A DNA stretch of 64,000 nucleotides from the NCBI GenBank assembly GCA_947488435.1, contig CANKZG010000001.1, positions 1,976,308 through 2,040,307 of the forward strand, in the 5' to 3' direction. The stretch comes from an uncultured Flavobacteriaceae bacterium. Its GTDB lineage: Bacteria; Bacteroidota; Bacteroidia; Flavobacteriales; Flavobacteriaceae. Below are positions 48,301-64,000 of this stretch, piece by piece. Below the pieces are notes generated by a model. It searched no databases. It was given only the letters and a program-made list of their open reading frames with translations, and had not been told where the DNA came from. Each line of letters opens with the position of its first letter. The stretch's first letter is position 1. A program made the position numbers and the translations under genes.

Positions 48301-48496
48301 GCCAGATTGGTTTATACTTCCAAGTACTCAAGTAGGTATACGTGGTATATGGCGATCGTTGGATCAGTTCTCGCCACGATTTTTACCAAATGAAGCTCTT
48401 GAATTTTCGAATGAACCCATTATAAGTCCAGTAGGATTTGGTAATGGTAGTGAATGGGAAATTATGACATACATACATATTAATATCGGGAAATAA
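45302..48496 (+). CDS. Clan GH-A glycosidase fused to a predicted outer-membrane beta-barrel
   Basis: A 1064-residue protein with a signal peptide (...TTFAFAQ). Residues 25-410 look like a GH2/GH72-type TIM barrel: FMINGMNWDYIPIG, LKNMGVNVIRQY, LLGNENNYG with Glu172 as likely acid/base, DIYGTNTYRG, and MFTEFGADAF with Glu277 as likely nucleophile. From about residue 490 to the end the sequence turns into alternating hydrophobic/polar strands with many aromatic residues (e.g. AEFEWNAKEFDLRGFFRTGHY, ATHVKINDWGPFDYHRDF) and ends with a strand-like MTYIHINIG, as in a porin. The GH family is not certain. It is the first gene of the locus after the regulator's terminator, 13 bases from the next gene. 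Confidence 0.7.
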   Translation: MTTLQKKLLKLTFFLITTFAFAQSSKVTVVNDEKGMQLIVNGEQFMINGMNWDYIPIGTNTVNANFWKKSDDVIRAGLDTEMSLLKNMGVNVIRQYTGVPAKWIQYIYENYGIYTMLNHSFGRYGLTIDGVWTPVTIYDDEKTAALLLAEMDQLVKDYKDTPGLLMYLLGNENNYGLFWAGAETEDFPDDEEEKRFIGEKRGRPMYRLMNEAAKKMKAIDGSHPVAICNGDVLFIDIVAEECKDIDIYGTNTYRGVSFGDMFQVVKEKLNMPIMFTEFGADAFNAINNKEDQYSQAYYMVGNWKEIYENAAGIGKAGNSIGGFTFQFSDGWWKFGFDDRKNSEIHDNNASWSNGGYARDLPGEGINNMNEEWFGICAKGATDPRGLYELYPRAAYYALKEAHQLNPYEQGVNLDFIQNHFNNIQLADAVLRARGDKAALVGEQGKLLRISNLQAKFATFSTGGSLITTPDNPDPDDPNTFPNQLGFDHMQSYFIGVEGNPAPNMRAKVNLNVVGNVALNPINEIFYENRARPITVSSPDGDIILGDNNRVAVYQAEFEWNAKEFDLRGFFRTGHYHWAYEGDFFNLYREANYGPNLDIYNGETLGIEIDGKGIFKGLKAAIGPQVWWGANPTMLYKYNTHIGKFGVSGIYQRDFETDIILDENGVRVLDANQVASGIIPPFPTERATLAIEREFGKVGVQVGGIWAGNPLNGTTFQDVRGTPGNYVVFEDRIQSKDNWGGKVKITYEGGKFNWYGQAAAMGLVANGGADQTLTFTGWKLKDSGSGNQTNILTGFTYSFGNFQIAPNFLWQQPIVDAIPEGVQGPGRLRNVIDDPFAVRANRETTGGELLLTFDPTPGTWMYEWDNDRAEDAKFAMNLGFVYRHLPTTQDAHVGFLATRQFFAFPNSVPAEDLWEVHSRMVSKLTPDLGLIGNFYYGNGQANGDSDRLIRRFGGDVRALYKNFKFATHVKINDWGPFDYHRDFNLTFPLQLMLDVSTTLGKPDWFILPSTQVGIRGIWRSLDQFSPRFLPNEALEFSNEPIISPVGFGNGSEWEIMTYIHINIGK

Positions 48497-48509
48497 AAAA
48501 GATTGAAAA

Positions 48510-49916
48510 ATGAAAAATAACAAATATATAAACGTACTATATATACTTCTTCTGAGCTTCGGTATTACTGTTTTTTCAGGATGTGAAAGAAGTTTTTCAG
48601 ACGATGTAGAGTTTGCCACATTCCCAGCAAATGGAGATGTTTTTATCGACAACTTTTCAGCAGGACTGGATTTCTTTCCCTTTGTTGATGCAGGGGCAGA
48701 TCCGGAAGCATTTAGTGTAGTAACAGATGAAGTTTTCTCGGGGTCTTCGGCAATGCGATTCGACGTTCCTTCATTTGGAAATGGATTCGTAGGAGCTACA
48801 TTTAATACAACTGCAAATAGAGACCTTTCTGGTTTTGATGCGCTAACATTTTATGCAAGAGCATCACAAGCTGCCAGTATTGACGCCATAGGTTTTGGTA
48901 TTGATGGGAGCACAAACAACAGATTTCAAGTTACCGTAAACAATTTGGATGTAAGTACACGATGGGAAAAATATGTAATACCAATTCCAGATCCCACGAT
49001 GTTAGTTAATGAAAGTGGACTATTTTGGTTGGCAGAAGGAGCATCCTTTGAAGGAGATGAAGGAGGTTACGCGCTATTTTTTGATGAAATTAAATTTGAA
49101 AGATTAGGTACAATAGCACAACCCAATCCAGCAATTTTTTCTGGTCAAGATGTTACAGAACAAGTATTTACAGGTTCTAGCCTTGTGATAAGCGGTCTTA
49201 CGCAAACCTTTAATTTGGCATCGGGAATCAATCAGACCGCTACGGCGGCACCTGCTTATTTCGATTTTTCATCGTCCGATAATTCGGTGGCGATTGTTAA
49301 TGAACTTGGAGAAGTTTCTGTTATAGGTGTTGGTACAGCAACAATTAGTGCTTTACTTGGTGGAGTAGCGGCACAAGGTTCTTTAGCCGTTACATCGGGT
49401 GGAGGTTTACCATTTGCTCCCACCCCAACAATACCAGAAGCTAACGTAAGCTCTATATTTAGTAATGCTTATCCAGATGCTACCGCAATTAATTTTGCAC
49501 CAGGTTTTGGGGGGTCTACAACCGAAACTACCTTGACTTCAAATAATGGAGATGAGATATTGTCATACACCAATAACAACTTTACAGGAATAATTTTTGA
49601 CAATACGGTGGATGCTTCTGGCTTGACTTTCCTTCATGTAGATGTATTTGTACAAGATGCGGGAACTCAGGTAGGGCTTCAGATTAGAGATATTGGAGCC
49701 AATCAAATGATTGAAACAGATGTAAACAACGGATTTCCTATAGGAGATGATGTTGATTTTAGAATTGATTTAACAGGGTTAACCGTTGGTCAGTGGACCT
49801 CGATAGATATTCCACTTGGAGGAGATCTAACAACACAAAGAAATAATCTAGGAGCTTTAATATTGGTAGGTGGTCCCAACTTTATATTGGACAATATTTA
49901 TTTCTTCACTGAGTAG
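48510..49916 (+). CDS. Surface glycan-binding lipoprotein candidate
   Basis: A 468-residue lipoprotein (signal ...TVFSGC, followed by ERSFSDDVE, an acidic stretch that favours surface export in Bacteroidota). Three parts can be seen: a jelly-roll-like module (about 40-205), a bacterial Ig-like module (about 210-295: SDNSVAIVNELGEVSVIGVGTA in two stretches) and a C-terminal module (about 305-468) with APTPTIPEANVSSIFSNAY and ILDNIYFFTE that has the same outline as the repeats of the 1312-residue lipoprotein two genes downstream. No catalytic pair is visible, so glucan binding is inferred from context. Confidence 0.7.
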   Translation: MKNNKYINVLYILLLSFGITVFSGCERSFSDDVEFATFPANGDVFIDNFSAGLDFFPFVDAGADPEAFSVVTDEVFSGSSAMRFDVPSFGNGFVGATFNTTANRDLSGFDALTFYARASQAASIDAIGFGIDGSTNNRFQVTVNNLDVSTRWEKYVIPIPDPTMLVNESGLFWLAEGASFEGDEGGYALFFDEIKFERLGTIAQPNPAIFSGQDVTEQVFTGSSLVISGLTQTFNLASGINQTATAAPAYFDFSSSDNSVAIVNELGEVSVIGVGTATISALLGGVAAQGSLAVTSGGGLPFAPTPTIPEANVSSIFSNAYPDATAINFAPGFGGSTTETTLTSNNGDEILSYTNNNFTGIIFDNTVDASGLTFLHVDVFVQDAGTQVGLQIRDIGANQMIETDVNNGFPIGDDVDFRIDLTGLTVGQWTSIDIPLGGDLTTQRNNLGALILVGGPNFILDNIYFFTE

Positions 49917-49938
49917 TATCGTCCTCAAAATAAAAAAA

Positions 49939-50808
49939 ATGATGAAAAATATGAATAGAAAAATAATATCAGCCTTAGTACTGAAAGCTATTATTATAGT
50001 AGCAATAGGTGTTATGGGTAGTTGTTCAACCGATGAAACGCAAACTGTAGCCACATTTAACAATTTAATTTTCGAAGATGAATTCGATATTGATGGAGAA
50101 TTGAATACTGCAATTTGGAATTTCGATATTGGTGATGGAACAGCTCAAGGTATCCCTGGATGGGGAAATAATGAACTACAATATTATACCGATCGCCCGT
50201 CAAACATTACGGTAGAAAATGGTTTTTTGCTCATTACAGCAATGCGAGAAGATTTTAATGGGTCTCAATTTACATCGGCAAGAATTCAAACGGAAGGAAA
50301 ATTTGAACAAAGGTTTGGACGATTTGAAGCCCGAATGAGATTGCCTTTTGGTCAAGGTATGTGGCCAGCATTCTGGATGTTAGGGGATGATGAAGATGGT
50401 GCTATAATCTGGCCACAACGAGGGGAGATCGATATTATGGAGTATCGAGGACAGAACCCAACCGAAGTTCTTGGAAGTGTTCATGGACCTGGTTTTGCAG
50501 GAGCAGAATCAATTACAAAATCTTTTTTCTTAGAAGAGGATAGATTCGATACTGGTTTTCATGTTTTTGGAATTGAATGGGGTCCTAATTTCATCAATTA
50601 CTATGTAGACGATGTATTGTACAACCAAATTACTCCCGACGACGTTCCCGAGGGTGGTGAATGGGTATTTAATGAAAGACCATTTCATATTCTTTTGAAT
50701 TTAGCCGTAGGTGGCGATTTTGTTGGAAGCCCCAATGACGAAACAGTTTTCCCTCAGACCATGTTGGTCGATTATGTAAGGGTATATGAAAATACGAATG
50801 CAAACTAA
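49939..50808 (+). CDS. GH16 endo-beta-1,3-glucanase (laminarinase-like), lipoprotein
   Basis: Cleaves beta-1,3-glucan chains internally, most likely at the cell surface. From ATG 49939 it has 289 residues; an earlier ATG at 49870 overlaps the preceding gene and spoils the signal. The lipoprotein signal ends ...GVMGSC, followed by STDET. The GH16 catalytic motif is GEIDIMEYRG (Glu163 nucleophile, Glu168 acid/base). Other laminarinase landmarks: GWGNNELQYYTD, GRFEARMRLP, WPAFWMLG, HVFGIEW and a C-terminal LLNLAVGG, with VDYVRVYE. It sits in the same unit as the two binding lipoproteins. Confidence 0.92.
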   Translation: MMKNMNRKIISALVLKAIIIVAIGVMGSCSTDETQTVATFNNLIFEDEFDIDGELNTAIWNFDIGDGTAQGIPGWGNNELQYYTDRPSNITVENGFLLITAMREDFNGSQFTSARIQTEGKFEQRFGRFEARMRLPFGQGMWPAFWMLGDDEDGAIIWPQRGEIDIMEYRGQNPTEVLGSVHGPGFAGAESITKSFFLEEDRFDTGFHVFGIEWGPNFINYYVDDVLYNQITPDDVPEGGEWVFNERPFHILLNLAVGGDFVGSPNDETVFPQTMLVDYVRVYENTNAN

Positions 50809-50829
50809 ATTAATTAACAAAACCAAATT

Positions 50830-53800
50830 ATGAAAGAGTTACTAAAAAGAACAAAGTATATTTTTGTATGCGTTTTAGCTATATCAATGCTAGGATGTGA
50901 TGCAGATGACTTTAACTTACCACGAGTTACTGCGGGCTTTACGTTTACCGTAGTTGAAAACTCAGGAGTGGTTACTTTTATAAATACTTCTGAAGAGGCC
51001 CAAAATTTCACATGGGATTTTGGCAATGGAAATACGTCCACAGAAATAAACCCGACAAACGTTTACGAAGCTGGAACATTTACGGTTTCTCTAACGGCAA
51101 CAAATGGTGCCGGAGGTTCTGATACCTTTGAAGATGAGATCACCATAGATATTATGATGTCTACTTTCGATTCGGGATTACTTGTCAATGGTGATTTTGA
51201 GAATGGAGATGCTCCGTGGATAGGAAATGCACTAAATATACAGACCGAAGGAGGCAACTCTTTTAATTTTGCTAATGTCGAGACGGCTGGAAATCCGTTT
51301 GACGTGAACCTTAGTCAAGTAGTTGAAATCACTCAGGGTACCAATTATATATTAACCTTTGATGCATCTTCCGATCAAGCAAGAACAATGTTAGCAGGAA
51401 TAGGTTTAAATGAAGACCCTTTTACAAATACAGCACCAGAAATTAATCTTACAACAGAGACACAAACATTTACTCTTCAGCTGGCCGCAAGTGATTTTGG
51501 TGGAGCCAATAGTCGTGTACTTTTTGACATGGGAGCAGCAGTAGGAACGGTTGTTTTAGACAATGTTTCCTTAGTAGTAGGTGGAGATGGAAGTGACTCT
51601 GGCACAGGTGGCGGAGGCGATACACCAACTGAAGCGGCACCAACACCTCCAACAAGAGACGCTGCAGACGTAATTTCTCTTTTCAGTAATGCATATGCAA
51701 ATATTACAGTAGATACTTTCTTCGCAGGATTTAGCGCAGGAGCAGGACAAACAGAAGAGCAGGTAGCTGGTGATGATGTATTGCGCTATGCAGATTTAGA
51801 TTTTGCAGGTGTTGAAACGATAAACACTGCTGTTGATTTAACTTCAATGACGAACTTTAGTATTGATGTTTGGACAGCTACGGAATTTGATTTTATTGCA
51901 GGAATTGTAGACTTTGCAGGTGATGGTTTTGATGGTGGAAATGATACCCGAGGTGATGCTCGCGAAACCCTTCAGGCAGGACAATGGACTACTATCGATG
52001 TAACCATAGCAGATTTACAGGCAGCAGGACTTACCGCTACTCCAGCAGATTTTAGTCAGTTGATCTTAGATGTTGTTGACGTTGTAGGAACAGTTTATAT
52101 CGATAATATTTATTTCTACAATGATACCGGCACTGGTGGTGGAGGCGATACGCCAACTGAAGCAGCACCAACACCTCCAACAAGAGACGCTGCAGATGTG
52201 ATTTCACTTTTCAGTAATGCATATTCAAATATTACAGTAGATACCTTCTTCGCAGGATTTAGCGCAGGAGCAGGACAAACAGAAGAGCAGGTAGCTGGTG
52301 ATGATGTCTTACGTTATGCGGATTTAGATTTTGCAGGTGTTGAAACGATAAACACTGCTGTTGATTTAACTTCAATGACGAACTTTAGTATTGATGTTTG
52401 GACAGCTACGGAATTTGATTTTATTACAGGAATTGTAGACTTTGCAGGTGATGGTTTTGATGGTGGAAATGATACCCGAGGTGATGCTCGCGAAACCCTT
52501 CAGGCAGGACAATGGACTACTATCGATGTAACTATAGCAGATTTACAGGCAGCAGGGCTTACCGCTACTCCAGCAGATTTTAGTCAATTGATCTTAGATG
52601 TTGTTGACGTTGTAGGAACGGTTTATATCGATAATATTTATTTCTATAATGACGGCAGCACCGGTGGTGGAGGCGATACGCCAACTGAAGCAGCACCAAC
52701 ACCTCCAACAAGAGACGCTGCAGATGTGATTTCACTTTTCAGTAATGCATATGCAAATATTACAGTAGATACCTTCTTCGCAGGATTTAGCGCCGGAGCA
52801 GGGCAAACAGAAGAGCAGGTAGCTGGTGATGATGTCTTACGTTATGCGGATTTAGATTTTGCAGGTGTTGAAACTATTTCAACTGCAGTTGATTTAACCA
52901 TGATGACGAATTTTAGTATTGATGTATGGACAGCTACAGGTTTTGATTTCATTTCCGGAATTGTAGACTTTGGTGGAGATGGTTTTGGTGGTGCTAACCC
53001 AGATACTCGAGGCGATGTACGCGAAACCCTTCAGGCAGGACAATGGACTACTATTGACGTAACTATAGCAGATTTACAGGCAGCAGGGCTTACCGCTACT
53101 CCAGCAGATTTCAGTCAATTGATTTTAGATGTTGTTGATGTTGTAGGAACGGTTTATATCGATAACATTTATTTCTACAACGACGGTAGCGCAGGTGGTG
53201 GCGGAACTACCCCTTCTATGCCAGCACCAACACCACCTATGAGAGATGCTGCAGATGTGATTTCGCTTTTCAGTAATGCGTATGCAAATATTACGGTAGA
53301 TACCTTCTTTGCAGGATTTAGTGCAGGAGCAGGACAAACCAACGAACAAGTAGCTGGTGATGATGTCTTACGTTATGCGGATTTAGATTTTGCAGGTGTT
53401 GAAACTATTTCAACTGCAGTTGATTTAACTTCAATGACGAATTTTAGTATTGATGTATGGACAGCTACAGGTTTTGATTTCATTTCCGGAATTGTAGACT
53501 TTGGCGGCGATGGTTTTGGTGGTGCTAACCCAGATACTCGAGGCGATGTACGCGAAACTCTTCAGGCAGGACAATGGACTACTATCGATGTAACCATAGC
53601 AGATTTACAGGCAGCAGGACTTACTGCTACTCCGGCAGATTTCAGTCAGTTGATTTTAGATGTTGTTGACGTTGTAGGAACGGTTTATATCGATAACATT
53701 TATTTCTACAACGACGGTAGCGCAGGTGGTGGCGGAACTACGCCTTCTATGCCAGCACCAACACCACCTATGAGAGATGCTGCAGATGTGATTTCGCTTT

Positions 53801-54768
53801 TCAGTAATGCGTATGCAAATATTACGGTAGATACCTTCTTTGCAGGATTTAGTGCAGGAGCAGGACAAACGAACGAACAAGTAGCTGGTGATGATGTATT
53901 ACGTTATGCGGATTTAGATTTTGCAGGTGTTGAAACTATTTCAACTGCAGTTGATTTAACTTCAATGACGAATTTTAGTATTGATGTATGGACAGCTACA
54001 GGTTTTGATTTCATTTCCGGAATTGTAGACTTTGGTGGCGATGGTTTTGGTGGTGCTAACCCAGATACTCGAGGTGATGTACGCGAAACCCTTCAGGCAG
54101 GACAATGGACTACTATCGATGTAACCATAGCAGATTTACAGGCAGCAGGACTTACTGCTACTCCGGCAGATTTCAGTCAGTTGATTTTAGATGTTGTTGA
54201 TGTTGTAGGAACGGTTTATGTGGATAATATCTATTTCTATAATAATGGTGGCTCCGGTGGAGGAGGAGTAACTGCACTATCTGCTTTACCTGCAGATTTT
54301 GAAAATGGAGAAGAATTTAGTGCAGTCTTCGAGCCTGCAAATGTTAATGGCTCAATTACGGCAAATGTAGTATCGGGGGGTATTAACACTTCTGCAAATG
54401 TTTATACGTTTAATAAACCTGCAGGTGGAGAATTCTTTGGCGGAATGGAAAATGTTTTTGCTACGCCGCTAGATTTAACTACCACAAGAACGTTTAGGGT
54501 ACAAGTTTACTCAACAAAACCAAATGTAGTAGTTCGGTTTGAGTTACAAACTCGACCTAATGGTCCGAATTTTAGTATAGATCAAACCGTAACAAATGCA
54601 AATGAATGGGTAGAATTAACTTTTGATTTTAATGCTATTACCTCTGGTGATCCAGGTTTTAATCCAAGTATTTATAATGCTATTGTTATAATTCCTGATT
54701 TTGATCCAGGAAACGACCCAACAACTACTTCAGAAACTTATTATATCGATAATATTATTCTGGAATAG
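50830..54768 (+). CDS. Giant multimodular glycan-binding lipoprotein with PKD and five tandem modules
   Basis: A 1312-residue lipoprotein (signal ...AISMLGC, then DADDFN). Modules in order: a PKD domain (about 30-105, with FTWDFGNGNTST), a CBM4/9-like jelly-roll (about 110-255, LLVNGDFENGDAPW), five tandem copies of one module (residues 269-1139), and a distinct C-terminal jelly-roll (about 1145-1312). Each copy begins with a Pro/Thr linker (APTPPTRDAADVISLFSNAY) and ends with YIDNIYFYN. No glycosidase motif is seen. The organisation suggests a long surface antenna that holds glucan by several weak contacts. Genes of enzymes on both sides support binding of laminarin-like glucan; this is inference. 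Confidence 0.75.
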   Translation: MKELLKRTKYIFVCVLAISMLGCDADDFNLPRVTAGFTFTVVENSGVVTFINTSEEAQNFTWDFGNGNTSTEINPTNVYEAGTFTVSLTATNGAGGSDTFEDEITIDIMMSTFDSGLLVNGDFENGDAPWIGNALNIQTEGGNSFNFANVETAGNPFDVNLSQVVEITQGTNYILTFDASSDQARTMLAGIGLNEDPFTNTAPEINLTTETQTFTLQLAASDFGGANSRVLFDMGAAVGTVVLDNVSLVVGGDGSDSGTGGGGDTPTEAAPTPPTRDAADVISLFSNAYANITVDTFFAGFSAGAGQTEEQVAGDDVLRYADLDFAGVETINTAVDLTSMTNFSIDVWTATEFDFIAGIVDFAGDGFDGGNDTRGDARETLQAGQWTTIDVTIADLQAAGLTATPADFSQLILDVVDVVGTVYIDNIYFYNDTGTGGGGDTPTEAAPTPPTRDAADVISLFSNAYSNITVDTFFAGFSAGAGQTEEQVAGDDVLRYADLDFAGVETINTAVDLTSMTNFSIDVWTATEFDFITGIVDFAGDGFDGGNDTRGDARETLQAGQWTTIDVTIADLQAAGLTATPADFSQLILDVVDVVGTVYIDNIYFYNDGSTGGGGDTPTEAAPTPPTRDAADVISLFSNAYANITVDTFFAGFSAGAGQTEEQVAGDDVLRYADLDFAGVETISTAVDLTMMTNFSIDVWTATGFDFISGIVDFGGDGFGGANPDTRGDVRETLQAGQWTTIDVTIADLQAAGLTATPADFSQLILDVVDVVGTVYIDNIYFYNDGSAGGGGTTPSMPAPTPPMRDAADVISLFSNAYANITVDTFFAGFSAGAGQTNEQVAGDDVLRYADLDFAGVETISTAVDLTSMTNFSIDVWTATGFDFISGIVDFGGDGFGGANPDTRGDVRETLQAGQWTTIDVTIADLQAAGLTATPADFSQLILDVVDVVGTVYIDNIYFYNDGSAGGGGTTPSMPAPTPPMRDAADVISLFSNAYANITVDTFFAGFSAGAGQTNEQVAGDDVLRYADLDFAGVETISTAVDLTSMTNFSIDVWTATGFDFISGIVDFGGDGFGGANPDTRGDVRETLQAGQWTTIDVTIADLQAAGLTATPADFSQLILDVVDVVGTVYVDNIYFYNNGGSGGGGVTALSALPADFENGEEFSAVFEPANVNGSITANVVSGGINTSANVYTFNKPAGGEFFGGMENVFATPLDLTTTRTFRVQVYSTKPNVVVRFELQTRPNGPNFSIDQTVTNANEWVELTFDFNAITSGDPGFNPSIYNAIVIIPDFDPGNDPTTTSETYYIDNIILE
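51634..54246 (+). repeat. Five tandem ~530-bp coding repeats
   Basis: Unit starts at 51634, 52162, 52690, 53221 and 53752; the first two periods are 528 bp, the next two 531 bp. Units 1-3 share the linker GGGDTPTEAAPTPP, while units 4-5 use GGGTTPSMPAPTPP. Units 1 and 2 share the core NTAVDLTSMTNF; units 3-5 have STAVDL and GANPDTRGDVRE. Long stretches are identical at DNA level, which indicates recent duplication or gene conversion. Confidence 0.92.
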
Positions 54769-55142
54769 ATAAAAATGTAATCTTCAATTTGAAATGGGTT
54801 GGTATAAAATTAAAATTGCGTGCCAACCTGTTTCAATATACTATTATTATATTGCCTGCCAACCTCATAAAGGCATCAAAACTAAAATTTGAATCAATAG
54901 AATATAGTCATGAACGCTAGTGATCAAGTACTTCAAATGAATAGGTTATATACATTTGTTATTTATATATCTTAATTTCCATTGACTATATTTCTTGTTT
55001 TTAACCATATAATTGAAACAAAAAGAAAGACCTTGAGGGAAGCAGAAGTATTGATAATTAAAAATTAAATAGTAAACGGGAAAATTTGTCGAAAAGAGGT
55101 TTAAAATTTTAGTTGGATAAAAAATAGATTTCATAAAATAGA
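54769..55142 (+). other. 374-bp gene-free gap with repeated TGCCAACCT sites
   Basis: No credible gene. TGCCAACCT occurs at 54821-54829 and again at 54857-54865, exactly 36 bases apart, and an inverted partial copy GGGTTGG stands at 54796-54802. A TACATTTG (54951-54958) matches the -7 consensus but lacks a placed TTG and lies 184 bases before the next start codon. No terminator hairpin is seen. The gap probably holds a second promoter and its regulatory sites for the phosphorylase gene set. Confidence 0.45.
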
Positions 55143-58100
55143 ATGAATAAGAATACGATTTACAAAGGGAACAAGGGAAGTGCTAATGCTGAAAAAAAGG
55201 TAATAGGTGAGTTGATAGAACTTAATGGTGAAACTTACTATAAAATCTCCAATTGCGATATCATGCGTCCCTTTTTTATGAGTATAGTTAGTGATGCTAA
55301 TCATTGGATGTTTATTTCTAGTAACGGGGGTTTATCTGCAGGTAGAAAAAATTCAGACAATGCATTATTCCCATATTATACAGACGATAAGATTACCGAG
55401 TCTTATGATTTAACAGGTAGCAAGTCCATTTTTCAAGTAACTAAAAGGGATGAAAAGTATATTTGGGAACCTTTTTCCAAACGCTATACGGACCGTTATA
55501 GTCTTAGTAGAAATCTCTATAAAAATGACTACGGGAACAAGGTTATTTTTGAAGAAATTAATCATGACCTTGAGCTTACCTTTCAGTATCAATGGAATTC
55601 AAGTAATCGCTTTGGCTTTGTAAAAAAGAGCAAACTTATAAATAATGCGAATACTCCTCTTACAGTAAAAGTATTGGATGGAATTCAAAATATTATACCT
55701 TACGGAGTTGGAGCAGCTACCCAACAGGCTAGCAGTAATTTAGTAGATGCCTACAAACGGAGCGAACTTATTGAGGATTCTAAACTAGGTATTTTTGCGT
55801 TGAGCGCAATTATTGTAGATAAAGCTGAACCTAGTGAGGCGTTAAAAGCAAATATAGTTTGGTCTATTGGACTTGAAAATGCTACAACCTTATTGTCCTC
55901 TTTACAACTAAATAATTTTCGAGCGGGAAACCCAGTACAAGAAGAAATTGATATTAAAGCAGAAAAAGGCGCCTATTTTTCTGTAGCAGAAGTACACCTG
56001 GAAGTTAAAGAGAAAAGACAATGGGCTTTTATAGCAGATGTAAATAAGAGCTCTGCAAAAGTCATTAATATCTCTGAAGAAATTAAATCAAACAAAAGAC
56101 TTTGGGGTGAAGTATTTGAGGATATCGAAAAAGGTTCGAAGAATCTATTACAACTTATAAACGCTTCAGATGGGAAGCAACTGACATCAGATAAGAGAAG
56201 TAATATACGGCATCATGCTAATGTGATGTTCAATATAATGCGCGGCGGAATATTTGATGATAATTACAATATTGAAAAATCAGACTTCATTACATACATC
56301 GCTAAAGCCAATACCGAAGTTTTTAAGCGCAAAAAACATCTCTTGGAGAATTTGCCTGATAGGTTTGCACATACGAGTTTAAAGGCAATAGCAAAAGAAA
56401 ATACCGATAAAGATTTTGGGAGATTATGCTTAGAGTATTTGCCGTTGAAATTTAGCAGAAGACATGGAGACCCGAGTAGACCTTGGAATAGATTTTCTAT
56501 CAATACTACCACTGAAGACGGAAAGAAAGTATTGGATTATGAAGGAAATTGGCGCGATATATTTCAGAATTGGGAAGCACTCGTGCATTCGTTTCCGGAG
56601 TTTATTGAAAGTATGATTCATAAGTTTTTGAATGCTACTACTTTTGATGGTTACAACCCCTATCGTGTAACAAAAGATGGTTTTGATTGGGAAACAATTG
56701 AACCCGATGATCCATGGTCTTATATCGGATATTGGGGAGATCATCAGATTATATACTTATTAAAATTTCTAGAGTTTAGTGAAAACCATTACCCGGGGAA
56801 TCTGGCGAATTACCTAGGGGACAAAATCTTTGTTTATGCCAATGTGCCATATAAGATTAAGGATTATGCCGCCATTCTAGAAAACCCTAAGGACACTATA
56901 CTGTTTGATGAAGCGCTTGATACCCTAATTCATAAAGAACGGTTGCAGCTGGGAGCAGATGCTGCATTGTTGAAAAACCCAGACGTATCCATTTATAAAG
57001 TGAATTTGCTTGAGAAATTGTTAGCCACCGTATTGGCTAAAGTTTCTAATTTTATTCCTGAGGGAGGTATTTGGATGAATACACAAAGACCAGAATGGAA
57101 TGATGCAAACAACGCTTTGGTGGGGAATGGTGTTTCTATGGTAACGCTAAATTATTTAAGAAGATTTTTAAATTTCTTTGAAAGAGTTCTTGAAGAAACG
57201 CCTGAGAAAGATTACGAAGTATCGAAAGAGTTGATTACTTTTTTTAATCAAGTTAGGGTAACGCTTACCGAAAATCTACCCATACTTTCGGGTAGCATTT
57301 CTAATGCGGATAGGAAACGAATAACGGATGGCTTAGGTAAGGCTGGAAGTACGTATCGAAATACCATATATGCTAGTGGTTTTAGCAATCAAATGAAAGT
57401 AGTTACTAAAGCGGATATCCTCCAATTTATAGCAATAGCTATAAAGTATATGGATCATAGTATTAAAGCAAATAAGCGAGAGGATAACTTGTATCATGCA
57501 TATAATCTAATGACAGTTGAGAATACTGACAAAATTTCGATTTCCAATTTATCTGAGATGTTAGAAGGTCAGGTAGCTGCATTGAGCTCAGGCTATTTAT
57601 CTAGCAGAGCGGCTTTAGATTTGTTAGATGGTTTAAAAAATAGCGCATTGTTTAGACCTGATCAATATAGTTATTTACTATATCCCAATAAAAACTTGCC
57701 AAAGTTTGTAGCTAAGAACAATATTCCAACAGAGAAGATCAAACAATCAGAATTAGTACTAAAACTACTAACTGAAGGGAATACTAGCATTGTAGAAAAA
57801 GATATTCAAGGCAATTATCATTTTAATGGTGCTTTCAATAATGCCGAAAGCTTAAAAAGTGCCCTTTCAGAATTATCGCAGGAACAATATGGCGCATTGA
57901 TTGAAAAGGATAGAATTTTATTATTATCCATTTTTGAAGACATTTTTGATCATAAATCATTTACAGGAAGATCCGGAACTTTCTTTGGATATGAAGGTTT
58001 AGGTTCCATTTATTGGCATATGGTTTCCAAATTGCTGTTAGCAGTTCAGGAAACCTGTTTTAGAGCATTTGAAGAAAATGAGAGTGAAGAAACAATAGGT

Positions 58101-58601
58101 AGATTATTGGAACATTATTACGAAATAAATGAAGGCATAGGAGTTCATAAATCTCCTGAATTATATGGTGCTTTTCCTACGGATCCGTATTCACATACTC
58201 CTGCAGGTAAAGGGGCACAACAACCTGGTATGACGGGGCAGGTAAAAGAAGATATTTTAAGTAGATACGGAGAACTGGGTGTTTTTGTAACAGCAGGAAG
58301 GCTACTATTTAAACCGTATTTGTTGCGTAAAGATGAATTTCTTAAAGAACCATCGATATTTGAGTATGTTAAATTATATGGCGGTTTGGAAAAAATTTCT
58401 CTTGAAAAGAATTCCCTAGGCTTTACATATTGTCAAGTACCAATGATTTATCAGCAATCCAATAGTGAAAAGCTCAAAGTATTTTTTAATGATAATTCGA
58501 TTGTCGAGTCTGATACCTTGAGTTTGGATGCAGAAACCAGCAGAAAACTTTTTGAAAGAACCGGAGAGATCCGTCAAATTGTAGTTGCCATTAAAAATTA
58601 A
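55143..58601 (+). CDS. Putative beta-1,3-glucan phosphorylase (GH149-like)
   Basis: A 1152-residue protein without signal peptide or membrane segment, so cytoplasmic. The build is that of GH94-related glucan phosphorylases: an N-terminal beta-sandwich (about 15-300, with FFMSIVSDANHWMFISSNGG and an aromatic, Trp-rich surface), a helical linker, then an (alpha/alpha)6-type catalytic region with SRRHGDPSRPWNRFSI, YEGNWRDIFQNWEA, FDGYNPYR, SYIGYWGDHQIIYLL and GGIWMNTQRPEWNDANNAL. Its length and gene context (GH16, GH17, GH30) suit GH149, whose characterised members phosphorolyse beta-1,3-oligoglucans to glucose 1-phosphate; GH161 or another relative is possible. It begins the second gene set of the locus. 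Confidence 0.65.
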   Translation: MNKNTIYKGNKGSANAEKKVIGELIELNGETYYKISNCDIMRPFFMSIVSDANHWMFISSNGGLSAGRKNSDNALFPYYTDDKITESYDLTGSKSIFQVTKRDEKYIWEPFSKRYTDRYSLSRNLYKNDYGNKVIFEEINHDLELTFQYQWNSSNRFGFVKKSKLINNANTPLTVKVLDGIQNIIPYGVGAATQQASSNLVDAYKRSELIEDSKLGIFALSAIIVDKAEPSEALKANIVWSIGLENATTLLSSLQLNNFRAGNPVQEEIDIKAEKGAYFSVAEVHLEVKEKRQWAFIADVNKSSAKVINISEEIKSNKRLWGEVFEDIEKGSKNLLQLINASDGKQLTSDKRSNIRHHANVMFNIMRGGIFDDNYNIEKSDFITYIAKANTEVFKRKKHLLENLPDRFAHTSLKAIAKENTDKDFGRLCLEYLPLKFSRRHGDPSRPWNRFSINTTTEDGKKVLDYEGNWRDIFQNWEALVHSFPEFIESMIHKFLNATTFDGYNPYRVTKDGFDWETIEPDDPWSYIGYWGDHQIIYLLKFLEFSENHYPGNLANYLGDKIFVYANVPYKIKDYAAILENPKDTILFDEALDTLIHKERLQLGADAALLKNPDVSIYKVNLLEKLLATVLAKVSNFIPEGGIWMNTQRPEWNDANNALVGNGVSMVTLNYLRRFLNFFERVLEETPEKDYEVSKELITFFNQVRVTLTENLPILSGSISNADRKRITDGLGKAGSTYRNTIYASGFSNQMKVVTKADILQFIAIAIKYMDHSIKANKREDNLYHAYNLMTVENTDKISISNLSEMLEGQVAALSSGYLSSRAALDLLDGLKNSALFRPDQYSYLLYPNKNLPKFVAKNNIPTEKIKQSELVLKLLTEGNTSIVEKDIQGNYHFNGAFNNAESLKSALSELSQEQYGALIEKDRILLLSIFEDIFDHKSFTGRSGTFFGYEGLGSIYWHMVSKLLLAVQETCFRAFEENESEETIGRLLEHYYEINEGIGVHKSPELYGAFPTDPYSHTPAGKGAQQPGMTGQVKEDILSRYGELGVFVTAGRLLFKPYLLRKDEFLKEPSIFEYVKLYGGLEKISLEKNSLGFTYCQVPMIYQQSNSEKLKVFFNDNSIVESDTLSLDAETSRKLFERTGEIRQIVVAIKN

Positions 58602-58625
58602 ATTCAGAACCAAAAAAAAAGAAAC

Positions 58626-59903
58626 ATGAAAAACTATTTCAAAACAATTGGTTATTTAACATTAGTATTGCTAGTTTTCTCATGTAAAAACAATACCAAA
58701 TCAGAAAATAATACAACTACAGTGACGCAAACATCAAATATAAGTGCAAAAGATATTTTGGGTAATCCTGAGTATTTGGCTATGTCTTATGGTGGATATA
58801 GATATGTTGATCATGATATTGAACCCACTTTAGAAGAACTAAAAGAGGATATGAAAATATTAGCAGCAATGGGAGTTAAAATGCTGCGTACCTATAAAGT
58901 CCATTTGCCACAGGCAACTAACCTCTTACAAGCGATAAGTGAATTAAAAAAAGAAGATCCAAGTTTTGAAATGTATGTTATGTTAGGAGCATGGATTGAT
59001 TGTAAAAATGCTTGGACAGATCAGAAACCGGATCATAATGAAGAAAGTGAAAGAAATGCAGTAGAAATTGCCACCACAGTAACATTAGCCAAAAAATATC
59101 CAGATATCGTAAAGGTAATAGCTGTGGGTAATGAAGCAATGGTAAAATGGGCTGCCAGTTATTATGTGCAACCCTGGGTTATCTTAAAATGGGTTAATCA
59201 TCTTCAAGACTTAAAAAAATCAGGAGAACTTCCGGAGGATTTATGGATTACGAGTTCGGATAATTTTGCTTCATGGGGAGGTGGAGATGCTGAATATCAT
59301 GTTACCGAATTAAATGAGTTGATTGCAGCAGTTGATTTTTTATCGGTGCATACCTATCCTATGCATGATACGCATTACAATCCAGATTTTTGGGGAGTCA
59401 GAGAAACAGAAAAGGATAAGTCAGATCTAGAAAAGATAGATGCTGCTATGTTACGCGCCAAAGCATATGCCCAGGCACAATACAATAGTGTACGAACTTA
59501 TATGAAAAGTTTAGGTATCGATAAACCCATACATATTGGTGAAACGGGATGGGCAACAACTTCTAACGGTCATTATGGACCCAATGGGTCTAAAGCAACA
59601 GATGAGTACAAAGAAGCATTATACTACAAACATTTACGCGACTGGACGAATGCTGAAGGAATATCGTGTTTCTATTTTGAAGGTTTTGACGAGCAATGGA
59701 AGGACGCTGCTAATCCTCTAGGTTCTGAGAATCATTTTGGATTAATAAACCTAAAAAGTCAAGCCAAATTTGCAATCTGGAGTTTAGTAGATGAAGGAGT
59801 TTTTGATGGACTGACGCGAGATGGTAAACCCATTACAAAAACATATAATGGAGATAAAAGTGCATTGATAAAAGAGGTTTTAGCACCACCATATCACCAA
59901 TGA
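58626..59903 (+). CDS. GH17 beta-1,3-glucanase-like lipoprotein
   Basis: A 425-residue lipoprotein (signal ...VLLVFSC, then KNNTKSENN). The body is a clan GH-A TIM barrel with the GH17 pattern: MGVKMLRTYKVH, AVGNEAMVKW (Glu170, likely acid/base), DFLSVHTYPMHDTHY, IHIGETGWAT (Glu306, likely nucleophile), and SCFYFEGFDEQWK. It probably trims beta-1,3-glucan oligosaccharides at the surface or in the periplasm. Its stop overlaps the start of the GH30 gene by 4 bases (ATGA). It differs clearly from the two GH17-like sequences further downstream, which lack signal peptides. Confidence 0.85.
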   Translation: MKNYFKTIGYLTLVLLVFSCKNNTKSENNTTTVTQTSNISAKDILGNPEYLAMSYGGYRYVDHDIEPTLEELKEDMKILAAMGVKMLRTYKVHLPQATNLLQAISELKKEDPSFEMYVMLGAWIDCKNAWTDQKPDHNEESERNAVEIATTVTLAKKYPDIVKVIAVGNEAMVKWAASYYVQPWVILKWVNHLQDLKKSGELPEDLWITSSDNFASWGGGDAEYHVTELNELIAAVDFLSVHTYPMHDTHYNPDFWGVRETEKDKSDLEKIDAAMLRAKAYAQAQYNSVRTYMKSLGIDKPIHIGETGWATTSNGHYGPNGSKATDEYKEALYYKHLRDWTNAEGISCFYFEGFDEQWKDAANPLGSENHFGLINLKSQAKFAIWSLVDEGVFDGLTRDGKPITKTYNGDKSALIKEVLAPPYHQ

Positions 59904-61426
59904 GTATGCGAAAATTGAATAGAAGATATAGTTATTTAAAAGCTATTAAGCTTAGTCTTGTGGTATTCATAACACTTATAATTGGTAGTTGTATGAACAA
60001 TGAAAACGAATTGGAAGTAGTTGTGTATGAAACAGCGGCAAATGGAAATAAACTGAAACAAATAACTACATTTTCTAAAGCTGATAATGAGATAGACGTA
60101 AAATTAAATCCAGATAAAGAATACCAAAGCATTACCGGTTTTGGAGGATCATTTACGGAATCATCGGCATATTTATTAAATCAACTGGGAAAGGAGAATA
60201 GAGCAAAAGTTTTAGCGGCCTATTTTAGCGATGAAGGTGCAAAATACTCGCTTACAAGAACACATATGAATTCGTGTGATTTTTCACTCAGTAATTATTC
60301 ATATGCTCCAGTGGAAGGAGATATAAACTTAGATCATTTTTCAATCGATGAAGATCGTGATGATATTATCCCCATGATTAAAGATGCAATGAACGTGTCG
60401 AAAGACGGGTTTAAAATTTTAACTTCACCCTGGACAGCTCCACCATGGATGAAGGATAATAACGATTGGAGAGGGGGAAAGCTCTTACCAGAATACAACA
60501 CCACCTGGGCTCTGTTTTTTTCAAAATATATTGAAGCCTATAAAGCTGAAGGGATTAATATTTGGGGATTTACAGTCGAAAATGAACCCTTGGGAAATGA
60601 TAACAATTGGGAGAGCATGCACTTTACGGCTGAAGAGATGACCAATTTTGTTCAACATTATTTAGGTCCTCAATTGGAAAAGGATGGACACGATGTCAAA
60701 ATATTAGGCTACGATCAAAATAGAGAGCACTTAAAGGAATGGGTAGATGCAATGTATAAAAACGAAAGTACTTCGAAGTATTATGATGGTACTGCCATTC
60801 ACTGGTATGCGAGCACCTTCGAAGTTTTTCCAGAAGCTTTACAATATGCGCATCACAAAGCCCCTAATAAATACTTAATACAAACAGAAGCTTGCGTTGA
60901 TGCAGAAATTCCAAAATGGAAGGATGATGCTTGGTATTGGAAAAAAGAAGCTACTGATTGGGGATGGGATTGGGCACCAGAAAAAGATAAACATTTACAT
61001 CCAAAGTATGCTCCTGTAAATCGGTATGCAAGAGATATTATTGGATGCCTTAATAATTGGGTTGATGGTTGGATAGATTGGAATATGGTGTTAGATAAGC
61101 AAGGAGGACCAAACTGGTTTAAAAATTGGTGTGTAGCCCCAGTTATTGTTGATGCGGAAAATGATGAGGTATATTTTACTCCTATTTACTATATAATGAC
61201 GCACTTTAGCAAGTATATTAGACCTGGAGCCATTAAAATAGGAGTAACATCATCCGACGAAAAGTTAATGATTACAGCGGTAAAAAATCCTGATAATACC
61301 ATAGTTGTAATAGCTTTTAATGAAGAAGGAAATGCACAAAATTTAAACTTACAATTAGATGATAAAGCGGTAACAATACCAATGAGTGAGCGGGCCATTC
61401 AAACGATTGTAATTCCGAATATTTAG
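59900..61426 (+). CDS. GH30 glucosidase/beta-1,6-glucanase-like lipoprotein
   Basis: A 508-residue lipoprotein (signal ...FITLIIGSC). GH30 landmarks: YQSITGFGGSFTESSA, RTHMNSCDFSLSNYSY, SPWTAPPWMKDN, GFTVENEP with Glu229 as acid/base, IQTEACVD with Glu330 as nucleophile, and the C-terminal beta-domain (from about 430, IAFNEEG). GH30 enzymes next to laminarinases usually remove beta-1,6-linked glucose branches, which fits here. The start is ATG at 59900 within the previous stop; a second ATG at 59906 is possible. Confidence 0.9.
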   Translation: MSMRKLNRRYSYLKAIKLSLVVFITLIIGSCMNNENELEVVVYETAANGNKLKQITTFSKADNEIDVKLNPDKEYQSITGFGGSFTESSAYLLNQLGKENRAKVLAAYFSDEGAKYSLTRTHMNSCDFSLSNYSYAPVEGDINLDHFSIDEDRDDIIPMIKDAMNVSKDGFKILTSPWTAPPWMKDNNDWRGGKLLPEYNTTWALFFSKYIEAYKAEGINIWGFTVENEPLGNDNNWESMHFTAEEMTNFVQHYLGPQLEKDGHDVKILGYDQNREHLKEWVDAMYKNESTSKYYDGTAIHWYASTFEVFPEALQYAHHKAPNKYLIQTEACVDAEIPKWKDDAWYWKKEATDWGWDWAPEKDKHLHPKYAPVNRYARDIIGCLNNWVDGWIDWNMVLDKQGGPNWFKNWCVAPVIVDAENDEVYFTPIYYIMTHFSKYIRPGAIKIGVTSSDEKLMITAVKNPDNTIVVIAFNEEGNAQNLNLQLDDKAVTIPMSERAIQTIVIPNI

Positions 61427-61453
61427 AAATTAATTAACTAAAAACCTAATGAT

Positions 61454-63820
61454 ATGTCAAACCAAAATGTAGCAGTGAAAGATAAAGTCCCATTCGGACA
61501 AAAAGTAGCCTTTGGAATTGGCATGTTTGCCAATCAGATGTTTCCGGCGATACTAGGTATCTTTATGGTAGTTTTAGTTCAAGATTTGGGGTTCCCGGGT
61601 TGGATGTGGGGCGTCTTATTTTTTCTTCCTAGAGTGTTCGACTCTATTACAGACCCTATTATGGGTTTTATTTCCGATAATACGAAATCAAAATGGGGGA
61701 GACGTAGACATTACGTTTTTATAGGTGCCCTAATTATGGGAATTTCTTTCGTAATTATGTGGCAATTGTATAGAGAGAATGGAGTAGATTACAACTTTAC
61801 CTACTTTTTACTTTGGTCTTTTGCATTCTATCTAGGGTTGACCATTTTTAGTGTTCCTTATGTAGCAATGGGTTATGAAATGAGTAATGATTTTCATGAG
61901 CGTACGGATATTATGGCTATTGCACAATGGATAGGGCAATGGGCTTGGGTAATTGCGCCATGGTTCTGGGTTTTTATGTATGATCAGGATTGGTTTACAT
62001 CTGCGGACGTGGCAACGCGAGAGCTTGCCATATATGTAGGCATAGCATGTATGGTTTTTGCAATGGTTCCGGCGATTTTTATAAAAAGTAAATCTACCGT
62101 TGATGCAGACTATGCCCCACTAAATATAAAAACCATTGGAGGCAGTTTGAAAAAAATACTTGAGGGTTTTAAAGAAGCTTTTAAGTCAAGACCCTTTAGA
62201 CAGTTGTGTATTGCTACCTTTTTTATATACAATACTTTTTACACCATTGCTAGTTTCTCTTTTTTTATTGTTGTTTACTACCTTTTTGGGGGTGATGCTG
62301 GCGCTGCCGGAATTTGGCCTACCTTATTTGGAAGTGTGGGAGCTTTAGCAACAACCTTTATTGTTATTCCTATCATAGCGAATATGTCTAAAAAAATGGG
62401 AAAAAAGAAGGCTTTCATTATTTCTCAGGCCATTTCCATTTTAGGTTATATTTTACTTTGGTTTCTTTTTATACCTGGAAAACCTTACATGTTCTTATTT
62501 GCACTGCCTTTTTTCTCTTTTGGAATAGGAAGTTTATTTACGCTAATGATGTCTATGACCGCAGATGTTATCGATTTAGATGAATTGAATACGGGAGAAC
62601 GACGAGAAGGTGTTTTCGGTGCTATTTATTGGTGGATGGTAAAGTTTGGATTCGCAATTGCAGGATTGTTAACAGGTACCATCATGTCTGTAGTAGGATT
62701 TGATCCAAATGCAGCTGTGCAACCGGACGGAGCAATTTTTGGACTAAGAGCTTTTTACTCTGGTTTTCCCATTATTGGTACGTTAATCGCAATTTATGTA
62801 ATGTGGAAGTATGATTTAACAGAAGAAAGAGCTAATGAAATAAGTGAAGCTTTAGAAAACAGAAAAATAAAAAAGAAAGTTACCGAAGTTTCTTCTGCCT
62901 ATGGTGCGGGATACCTTAATTCAATCCCTGCAGATAAATTGAAACTTGGTAATTATACTGAAGTTAACCTCAGTGGAAAAAACTTATCAGAGTTAAAAGC
63001 TTTATTCATGGCAAAACTAGAGAATCAGGTGCATGGACTTAGCTTTAGCCCTTATGTTGAAGGCCAGGATACAACTGATATTTTATCAGAGTCACAAATT
63101 TGTAAGCGTATGGAGATTATTGCTCCTTATACCAAATGGGTAAGATCCTTTTCATGCACCGAAGGGAATGAAATTATACCAAGAGTAGCTCAGGAAAAAA
63201 AATTAAAATCTATTGTAGGTGCATGGATTAGTAGTGATAAAGACAGAAATGAAAAAGAAATTGAATCTCTAATTGCGCTTGCTAAAGCTGGAGAAGTTGG
63301 AATAGCAGCAGTCGGAAATGAAGTGTTACTTCGCGAGGAGATATCGGAAGCAGAACTTTTAACCTATATCAACAGAGTAAAAGAAGCGTTATCTGAATTT
63401 GATATTCCTGTTAGTTACGTAGATACCTATTACGAATATTATAGACGACCTAAACTGGTGGAGGCGTGTGATGTAATTTTAGCGAATTGCTATCCTTTTT
63501 GGGAAGGTTTTGATGTAGAAGATTCTTTGAAATACCTAAGACAAATGCATGCGATTACCAAGCAAGTTGCAAATGGTAAAAAAATAATAATATCAGAAAC
63601 AGGCTGGCCAAGTCAGGGGCAAGAAATTATGGATGCACATCCTTCTCAATTAAATGCGATGAAATATTTTATTCAAACACAAGAATGGGCAGATTCTGAA
63701 GGAGTGGAAATATTTCATTTCTCATCGTTTGATGAATCCTGGAAGGTTCGTTATGAAGGAGAGTTGGGAGCACGTTGGGGAATTTGGGATAAAAACGAAA
63801 AATTAAAGTACAATTCATAA
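61454..63820 (+). CDS. GPH-type sugar permease fused to a GH17 domain
   Basis: A 788-residue two-part protein in a single frame. Residues 1-460 form a 12-helix GPH (MelB-like) sugar:cation symporter: FDSITDPIMGFISDNTKSKWGRRRHY (in two stretches, with the D-x-T-x-S-x-WGRRR loop) and MMSMTADVIDLDELNTGERREG. After a charged linker (about 465-510) a GH17-like TIM barrel follows: VHGLSFSPYVEGQD, AAVGNEVLLRE (Glu623, likely acid/base), YVDTYYEYYR, IIISETGWPSQG (Glu715, likely nucleophile) and IFHFSSFDESWK. In the GPH family both ends face the cytoplasm, so the enzyme domain should act on sugars just after import. No stop or frameshift separates the parts. Confidence 0.85.
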   Translation: MSNQNVAVKDKVPFGQKVAFGIGMFANQMFPAILGIFMVVLVQDLGFPGWMWGVLFFLPRVFDSITDPIMGFISDNTKSKWGRRRHYVFIGALIMGISFVIMWQLYRENGVDYNFTYFLLWSFAFYLGLTIFSVPYVAMGYEMSNDFHERTDIMAIAQWIGQWAWVIAPWFWVFMYDQDWFTSADVATRELAIYVGIACMVFAMVPAIFIKSKSTVDADYAPLNIKTIGGSLKKILEGFKEAFKSRPFRQLCIATFFIYNTFYTIASFSFFIVVYYLFGGDAGAAGIWPTLFGSVGALATTFIVIPIIANMSKKMGKKKAFIISQAISILGYILLWFLFIPGKPYMFLFALPFFSFGIGSLFTLMMSMTADVIDLDELNTGERREGVFGAIYWWMVKFGFAIAGLLTGTIMSVVGFDPNAAVQPDGAIFGLRAFYSGFPIIGTLIAIYVMWKYDLTEERANEISEALENRKIKKKVTEVSSAYGAGYLNSIPADKLKLGNYTEVNLSGKNLSELKALFMAKLENQVHGLSFSPYVEGQDTTDILSESQICKRMEIIAPYTKWVRSFSCTEGNEIIPRVAQEKKLKSIVGAWISSDKDRNEKEIESLIALAKAGEVGIAAVGNEVLLREEISEAELLTYINRVKEALSEFDIPVSYVDTYYEYYRRPKLVEACDVILANCYPFWEGFDVEDSLKYLRQMHAITKQVANGKKIIISETGWPSQGQEIMDAHPSQLNAMKYFIQTQEWADSEGVEIFHFSSFDESWKVRYEGELGARWGIWDKNEKLKYNS

Positions 63821-63829
63821 GAAAGCACT

Positions 63830-64000
63830 ATGTCATACAGAGAAGGACGTCATTTTTCACAAGCAAAGAATAATTTTAAGGGACATGCCGGAGTAGATTT
63901 TGGTAAAGTTTCTGAAGATGAATTAAAAGAACTATGGTTAGAAACACTTCAGAGCGGAATGCATGGCCTTTGCTTTAGTATGTATGAAGATGGTCAAAAC
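63830..64000 (+). CDS. Soluble GH17-like protein, cut by window edge
   Basis: An open frame of 57 codons from an ATG 9 bases after the permease-GH17 gene to the right edge. It has no signal peptide. The stretch ELWLETLQSGMHGLCFSMYEDGQN (in part) matches ALFMAKLENQVHGLSFSPYVEGQD of the preceding fusion, where it marks the start of the GH17 barrel. The gene therefore probably encodes a free cytoplasmic GH17-like enzyme paralogous to the fused domain. Confidence 0.7.
   Translation, partial: MSYREGRHFSQAKNNFKGHAGVDFGKVSEDELKELWLETLQSGMHGLCFSMYEDGQN

Follow-up and report, generated by a model that had tools for sequence, protein, structure and literature searches.

A MelB-like permease fused to a GH17 domain in a flavobacterial laminarin-type locus, and the separate history of its enzyme end

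The fused gene

The stretch of DNA considered here (the window) comprises 64,000 nucleotides of contig CANKZG010000001.1, positions 1976308-2040307, from an uncultured Flavobacteriaceae bacterium. Toward its end lies a gene cluster of the laminarin type (Table 1), in which a single open reading frame of 788 residues, at 61454..63820 on the plus strand and without an internal stop, joins a MelB-like permease to a glycoside hydrolase family 17 (GH17) domain. The product is one more MFS-GH17 fusion of the FbGH17B type, an architecture in print since 2018. What goes beyond the accessible literature is that the enzyme end behaves like a module, which otherwise similar permeases lose or exchange; this end has a history separate from that of the permease to which it is attached.

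Pfam places MFS_2 (PF13347; 8.8e-64, 216 bits against a cut-off of 27) on residues 20-457 and Glyco_hydro_17 (PF00332; 8.6e-13, 49.0 bits against a cut-off of 28.2) on residues 707-787. These matches, the frame itself and an AlphaFold2 model confirm what an earlier reading made from the letters alone (the sequence-only reading) had proposed, that one uninterrupted frame encodes a 12-helix permease and a GH17 domain. That reading also took E623 and E715 to be the catalytic glutamates, and in an alignment of 272 GH17 sequences both are invariant, as is a Trp-Glu pair discussed below (105 of 105 fused domains, 167 of 167 free enzymes); N678 is invariant in the 105 fused domains.

Many relatives encode the permease and a free GH17 in neighboring genes with a few bases between them, an arrangement that an assembly or frameshift artefact could join into one. 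The sequence-only reading had allowed for a stop or frameshift near 62840-62960; the frame has no internal stop, and the same fusion recurs in other genomes. The whole genomes contain at least 27 other distinct fused permease genes (26 from the same family and one from the same order), and a scan of named genomes gave a fused frame in 77 of the best 80 loci, a ratio biased because the queries were fused proteins and the best 80 loci were kept. The fused domain, moreover, is a lineage of its own that differs from the neighboring free GH17. The independent fused frames refute the artefact reading, whose remaining probability is practically nil.

The sequence-only reading could recall no described example of such a protein, which proved mistaken. 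Unfried et al. (2018; PMC6246565) described FORMB_24740 (FbGH17B, AOR29491.1) of Formosa sp. Hel1_33_131 as an N-terminal 12-helix MFS with a C-terminal GH17, encoded beside GH17A (24720) and GH30 (24730), with activities published for all three Formosa proteins. When cloned and assayed, FbGH17B cleaved debranched but not native laminarin and was called an exo-β-1,3-glucosidase; the MFS-GH17 fusion was termed common among marine Flavobacteriia. A 2023 study of metagenome-assembled genomes (MAGs) from North Sea blooms (PMC10108472) reported at least one MFS-GH17 fusion in most variant-1 laminarin loci and named MAGs of Bacteroidota and, among gammaproteobacteria, of SAR92, Luminiphilus and SAR86; the fusion and the kind of locus are those of the window. 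Together the two reports rule out novelty of the architecture. FbGH17B and the window protein are likened by architecture: they share the order of the two domains and the laminarin-locus neighbors GH17A and GH30. At an acceptor-platform position FbGH17B has Met (PMC11005184) where the window protein has Leu. Exchange or loss of domains in MFS-GH17 fusions is not treated in the accessible parts of the literature found (PMC6246565, PMC10108472 and PMC8371827 among it), the library searched being one without most subscription papers, and a literature search on enzyme-barrel fusions gave nothing on point among the matches listed.

Structure and side of the membrane

The AlphaFold2 model of the window protein, with an alignment of 83 fused proteins as input, has a mean pLDDT (predicted local distance difference test score) of 88.4. 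By our own count it contains 12 membrane helices, a further helix at residues 457-478 and eight barrel strands; the permease part comprises the 12 transmembrane helices and most of the charged C-terminal helix 457-478. Residues 475-486 are of low confidence, and the joint between permease and GH17 is probably flexible. Structure searches matched the permease half to MFSD2A and MelB (PDB 4m64 and 8t60; inward-open) and the barrel to RmBgt17A (4wtp; Z 30.2, root-mean-square deviation 2.0 over 253 residues). Sequence comparison brings up 4wtp (1e-24) as the solved chain closest to the GH17 part, and MFSD2A and MelB as those closest to the permease. Matches in the VIA-align structure search are nearly all permeases, and the lack of other GH17 structures there carries no meaning.

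RmBgt17A, from Rhizomucor miehei, is thus the nearest solved GH17 by both sequence and fold among the matches listed; it is a fungal, free transferase, whereas the window GH17 is fused to a permease. MelB and MFSD2A, the nearest solved permease folds, have no enzyme domain. The window protein retains the two helix-II aspartates of MelB, with which D63 and D67 align, and both are invariant in the 83-sequence alignment. The helix-II aspartates of MelB have a role in cation binding, and the permease is probably cation-coupled.

A GH17 domain that faced the periplasm and fed sugars to the permease from outside would be in keeping with the FbGH17A-type laminarinases, which work outside the cytoplasm, and the 2018 paper on FbGH17B, in its accessible parts, does not state the side outright (PMC6246565). 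Such a placement is nevertheless highly improbable. The protein has 12 helices and no signal peptide, the modeled loops carry 32 Lys or Arg residues on the N-terminal side versus 2 on the other, and the charged loop between helices 2 and 3 shares its side with the C-terminus in the model. Because of this 32 to 2 imbalance the C-terminus, and the GH17 domain that it carries, would very probably be cytoplasmic. The cytoplasmic C-terminus put forward in the sequence-only reading is accordingly supported by predictions, namely the charge balance and the match to the inward-open MelB/MFSD2A fold.

Separate history of the enzyme end

Sequences were filtered before counting: permeases covering fewer than 380 query residues (that of G146 among them), duplicates, and free GH17 frames that were under 230 residues long or truncated at a locus end were dropped. 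The permease trees left out 20 unfused permeases of loci L260-L279 and those of L246-L259. The 29-versus-95 GH17 tree and the 118-row permease tree were quick searches, and the two larger GH17 trees and the 199-row permease tree were made with FastTree; careful runs were limited to the outgroup GH17 tree and both approximately unbiased (AU) tests.

In each unrooted GH17 tree a single branch separates fused from free domains: 29 fused from 95 free (97*, the asterisk marking a starred, well-supported branch), 105 from 167 (95*) and 105 from 195 (99*). With an outgroup, in a sample of 24 of the 105 fused domains, 30 of the 167 free enzymes and 10 of 28 candidates collected from a divergent GH17 type, the fused domains form a clade at 90/94, not starred, and the free enzymes group together in 35% of bootstrap trees. 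The GH17 trees place the fused domain and the neighboring free GH17 in different lineages, which rules out that the former is simply the latter, linked to the permease when a stop was lost. The divergent type, a third kind of GH17 of approximately 310 residues, follows the free GH17 in several loci (L064:6716, L092:6376, L119:6378, L126:7509, L129:6317 and others).

The permeases, by comparison, are interleaved. Over the 118-row permease tree the fused label changes 18 times, at least 12 of these forced by starred branches, and over 199 rows it changes 25 times, at least 16 of them forced; since the trees are unrooted, gain and loss are not readable from these counts. The fused permeases of L108, L109 and L119 are of a different class and share 46-48% identity with that of the window. 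In the quick tree, nonetheless, the main fused group (22 rows, 97*) includes the GH17 ends of L108 and L109, and the other fused group (seven rows) includes that of L119, which is on a long branch.

A chimeric joint is evident among close relatives. Compared with the window protein, the fusion of genome G237 is 92% identical in the permease and 49% in the GH17 end; the corresponding values are 90-91% and 47-48% for G233, 86% and 49% for G372, and 76% and 72% for G217. Identity drops at approximately residues 470-490, where the unfused permeases of G231, G239 and G326 end. The flanking genes of G233 (best tblastn pieces, with some genes cut by the stretch read) are 69% (GH149), 79% (GH17A), 76% (GH30) and 78% (free GH17) identical to those of the window, such that the identity of the permease exceeds, and that of the GH17 end falls short of, the values for flanking GH17A, GH30 and free GH17. 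Either half of the window protein may have moved; the G233 comparison fits both. AU tests, on groups named after the trees had been seen, rejected a clade of the four permease kin on the GH17 data (log-likelihood 176 lower, p 2e-58) and a clade of the four GH17 kin on the permease data (log-likelihood 196 lower, p 1e-5).

One GH17 lineage, interleaved permeases and the identity break together lead to the view that exchange between permeases, repeated loss, or a combination of the two has shaped the distribution of the enzyme end. Recombination at the joint explains the window chimera best, and repeated loss accounts for some of the scatter; the data do not tell the two apart. A broader reading is offered tentatively, at somewhat less than even chances: GH17 may be a transferable cap, a single lineage derived once from free GH17, so far only on permeases, and recombined at a fixed joint even between permease classes less than 50% identical. 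With its Leu/Met (hydrolase-like) and Tyr (transferase-like) forms, cells could then fit one importer with alternative exit enzymes.

Distribution of fused and unfused permeases

At 1e-40 or better, 136 of 397 genomes of the same family match the window protein, and at least 27 family genomes, its own included, have a complete fused frame. A further fused frame, in G146, is cut by a contig end, and another fusion occurs in G038, of the same order. All fused-gene counts are lower bounds, the loci having been picked from the matches listed. Apparent full-length fusions with an inner stop in G006, G241, G391, G363, G069 and G300 are split genes; those of G157, G364, G310 and G344 are true fusions despite an inner-stop mark.

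The 77 fused loci of the named-genome scan belong to Flavobacteriia (28), Cytophagia (15), Betaproteobacteria (15), Saprospiria (9), Balneolia (5), Bacteroidia (1) and unnamed classes (4). The betaproteobacterial records, mostly MAGs (Rubrivivax, Hydrogenophaga, Rhodoferax and others; loci L173, L177, L178, L180, L181, L186, L187, L189, L191, L197, L198, L200, L202, L206 and L219), are 60-65% identical to the window protein in the best segment. A free GH17 lies within 100 bases downstream of 27 of 28 fused genes in the family and order set. In 55 of 62 named loci outside Betaproteobacteria one follows the fused gene on the same strand at a distance of up to 300 bases; none of the 15 betaproteobacterial loci has one so placed, and several of these have GH17 genes upstream. 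The betaproteobacterial fusions, in another gene order, suggest transfer between phyla, with MAG binning errors as a possible source.

Unfused permeases 88-90% identical to that of the window occur in G231, G239 and G326, and a tether is therefore not obligatory for this kind of permease. The one in G239 (L228) is 90% identical, and tblastn with the other six cluster queries gave no match within the 16 kb read there. In L076, L077, L079, L080, L081, L082, L102 and L104, 706-733 bases separate a second-class permease from the next GH17 gene; in L081, where this gap was examined, it holds a frame of 206 residues with an N-terminal hydrophobic stretch (L081:5277-5897). An apparent MFS-x-GH17 protein of about 1025 residues in G034 and its kin was rejected, as L081 (G034) in fact holds a 476-residue permease, this 206-residue frame and a free GH17.

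Proposed role of the fusion and alternatives

The window protein is probably an FbGH17B-type component of a laminarin locus whose permease would import short β-1,3-gluco-oligosaccharides and whose tethered GH17 would trim them to glucose at the exit. Outside the cytoplasm, the lipoprotein-like GH30 and GH17A would debranch and cut laminarin. The MelB-like permease, with its probable cation coupling, would take in the short products, and the GH17 on its cytoplasmic C-terminus would act on chains as they leave, keeping the inside concentration of oligosaccharides low beside the permease. Soluble GH149 phosphorylase and the free GH17, in neither of which a signal peptide was seen by eye, would process the remaining chains. 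We infer the permease substrate, the coupling ion, the preference for hydrolysis over transfer and any kinetic gain from tethering.

Whether the fused domain hydrolyzes or transfers may be approached through MlGH17B of Muricauda lutaonensis (PMC11005184, PMC13188888), a free GH17 of 295 residues without a signal peptide, encoded beside a permease gene in a laminarin locus. By analogy with RmBgt17A mutants, Tyr136, Trp191 and Glu192 of MlGH17B were proposed to be crucial (PMC11005184). The window's fused domain has Leu626, Trp683 and Glu684 and so lacks the complete Tyr/Trp/Glu set of a transglycosylase, which the free GH17 neighbor holds in full (Tyr144/Trp199/Glu200); at the Tyr136 position MlGH17B thus agrees with the downstream free gene and differs from the fused domain. 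Among 105 fused domains this position is L in 68, M in 18, Y in 8, H in 5, F in 3 and Q in 3, and among 167 free enzymes it is Y in 145 and L in 22. The GH17 ends of G237 and G233 have Tyr where the window protein has Leu. By this one residue the window's fused domain appears hydrolase-like and its free neighbor transglycosylase-like. A fused domain acting mainly as a transglycosylase, to rebuild longer or branched glucans in the cell, is an unlikely alternative even though the Trp-Glu pair is retained and the nearest solved structure, RmBgt17A, is a transferase: Tyr occurs in just 8 of 105 fused domains against 145 of 167 free ones, and FbGH17B, with Met at the position, is reported to release glucose. 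Transglycosylation by the fused domain thus looks less likely than hydrolysis.

Several observations weigh against the proposed role. MlGH17B is a β-1,3-glucanosyltransglycosylase and is 53% identical to the FbGH17B domain (PMC11005184), and the Tyr marker is not clean, since Tyr is retained in 8 of 105 fused domains and Leu is present in 22 of 167 free enzymes. The NCBIfam model TIGR00792 (gph) matches end to end, over residues 17-470 (1.1e-57), with 195.6 bits, below its curated cut-off of 231.35, for which reason the protein is termed a MelB-like permease and not a certified GPH member. Ser133 aligns with the helix-IV aspartate of MelB (D124), a residue of the sugar site, so that the sugar preference of MelB is not transferable to this permease. 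Comparison of 90 unfused permeases gave 50 with a free GH17 no more than 100 bases downstream and 24 that lacked one for 3.5 kb downstream on their own strand of the stretch read; many permeases therefore do without a tether, and the gain from tethering may be small. GH149 enzymes phosphorolyze chains from a degree of polymerization of 2 (PMC6484121), and hydrolysis at the permease would therefore compete with energy-saving phosphorolysis.

It could also be that the tether channels nothing and serves to fix the enzyme at the membrane or to set a 1:1 dose, being nearly neutral and reversible. This is rather unlikely, though a more serious contender than transglycosylation; it is compatible with the rest of the best explanation and departs from it in the last step only, so that the probabilities assigned to the two overlap. 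The interleaving of fused and unfused permeases, the existence of unfused ones 88-90% identical to that of the window and the low-confidence, probably flexible joint all fit it. Against it, the fused domain is one lineage with none of the 195 free GH17s inside, and its catalytic residues are invariant; for these reasons the linked state seems to have been long kept, and across phyla. Trimming at the permease exit is the preferred explanation.

As a store of carbon, laminarin is of major importance in the sea, and the window protein sits in a locus of the laminarin-consuming kind. The natural domain swaps described above provide permeases of about 90% identity that differ in the enzyme end: the GH17 is Leu-type in the window, Tyr-type in G237 and G233, and absent in G231, G239 and G326. 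Comparison of these could show whether tethering speeds uptake or steers products.

Neighboring genes

The order GH17A, GH30, fusion is that of FORMB_24720/24730/24740, with the GH149 gene directly upstream. GH17A stands at the place of FbGH17A (an endo-laminarinase) and GH30 at that of FbGH30 (a β-1,6-glucosidase), and a further GH16 gene lies downstream of the free GH17 (L003:6097-6870).

Table 1. Parts of the fused gene and neighboring genes, in window positions
Feature	Position	Strand	Basis
Regulator with Y_Y_Y and LuxR-type helix-turn-helix domains	42222..45032	+	Domain search
GH2-type barrel, residues 36-288 of a 1064-residue protein	45302..48496	+	Pfam
GH16, lipoprotein-like by eye	49870..50808	+	PF00722, 2.8e-25
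PKD/CBM4_9 protein, lipoprotein-like by eye	50830..54768	+	Pfam; five repeats 176-177 residues apart
GH149 β-1,3-glucan phosphorylase, no signal peptide seen by eye	55143..58601	+	NF058639, 1796.8 bits (cut-off 1150)
GH17A, lipobox-like N-terminus by eye	58626..59903	+	PF00332, 2.3e-6, 27.9 bits, just below cut-off 28.2
GH30, lipobox-like N-terminus by eye	59900..61426	+	PF02055, 9.4e-76
Fusion: MelB-like permease, residues 1-473	61454..62872	+	PF13347, AlphaFold2 helices, MelB alignment
Fusion: junction/linker, residues 474-490	62873..62923	+	Unfused near kin end at about its start; near-kin identity breaks here
Fusion: GH17 (β/α)8 domain, residues 491-788	62924..63817	+	PF00332; 4wtp matches by sequence and structure
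Fusion: E623 codon, general acid/base	63320..63322	+	Invariant, 105/105 fused and 167/167 free GH17s
Fusion: Leu626 codon, place of MlGH17B Tyr136 (acceptor platform)	63329..63331	+	GH17 alignment; Tyr136 role from PMC11005184
Fusion: E715 codon, nucleophile	63596..63598	+	Invariant, 105/105 fused and 167/167 free GH17s
Start of standalone GH17, 302 residues, continuing past the window (L003:5138-6046)	63830..64000	+	No signal peptide seen by eye

No TonB plug domain (PF07715) was found in or near the locus; the genome has 31, of which those closest on the contig lie at 1864922 and 2431903. The 1064-residue GH2-type protein could be the outer-membrane entry of the locus. It has no Pfam match beyond the GH2-type barrel, and its structural model, from 10 sequences, is unusable (mean pLDDT 35.4). 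Long paired strands, of the kind expected of an outer-membrane barrel, appear in the later part of this unreliable model. Of 60 genomes searched, 10 (its own and 9 others) encode the protein at nearly full length, with 65-85% identity in the 9 others.

The protein encoded at 50830-54768 is probably a surface glycan binder. Tandem Repeats Finder reported no repeats at 48500-64000, probably because its longest period, 500, is shorter than the spacing of 528-531 bases at which a script found them. In an ungapped comparison the five repeats form two near-identical sets, with 94-98% DNA identity within sets, the mark of a recent duplication of what are probably glycan-binding modules.

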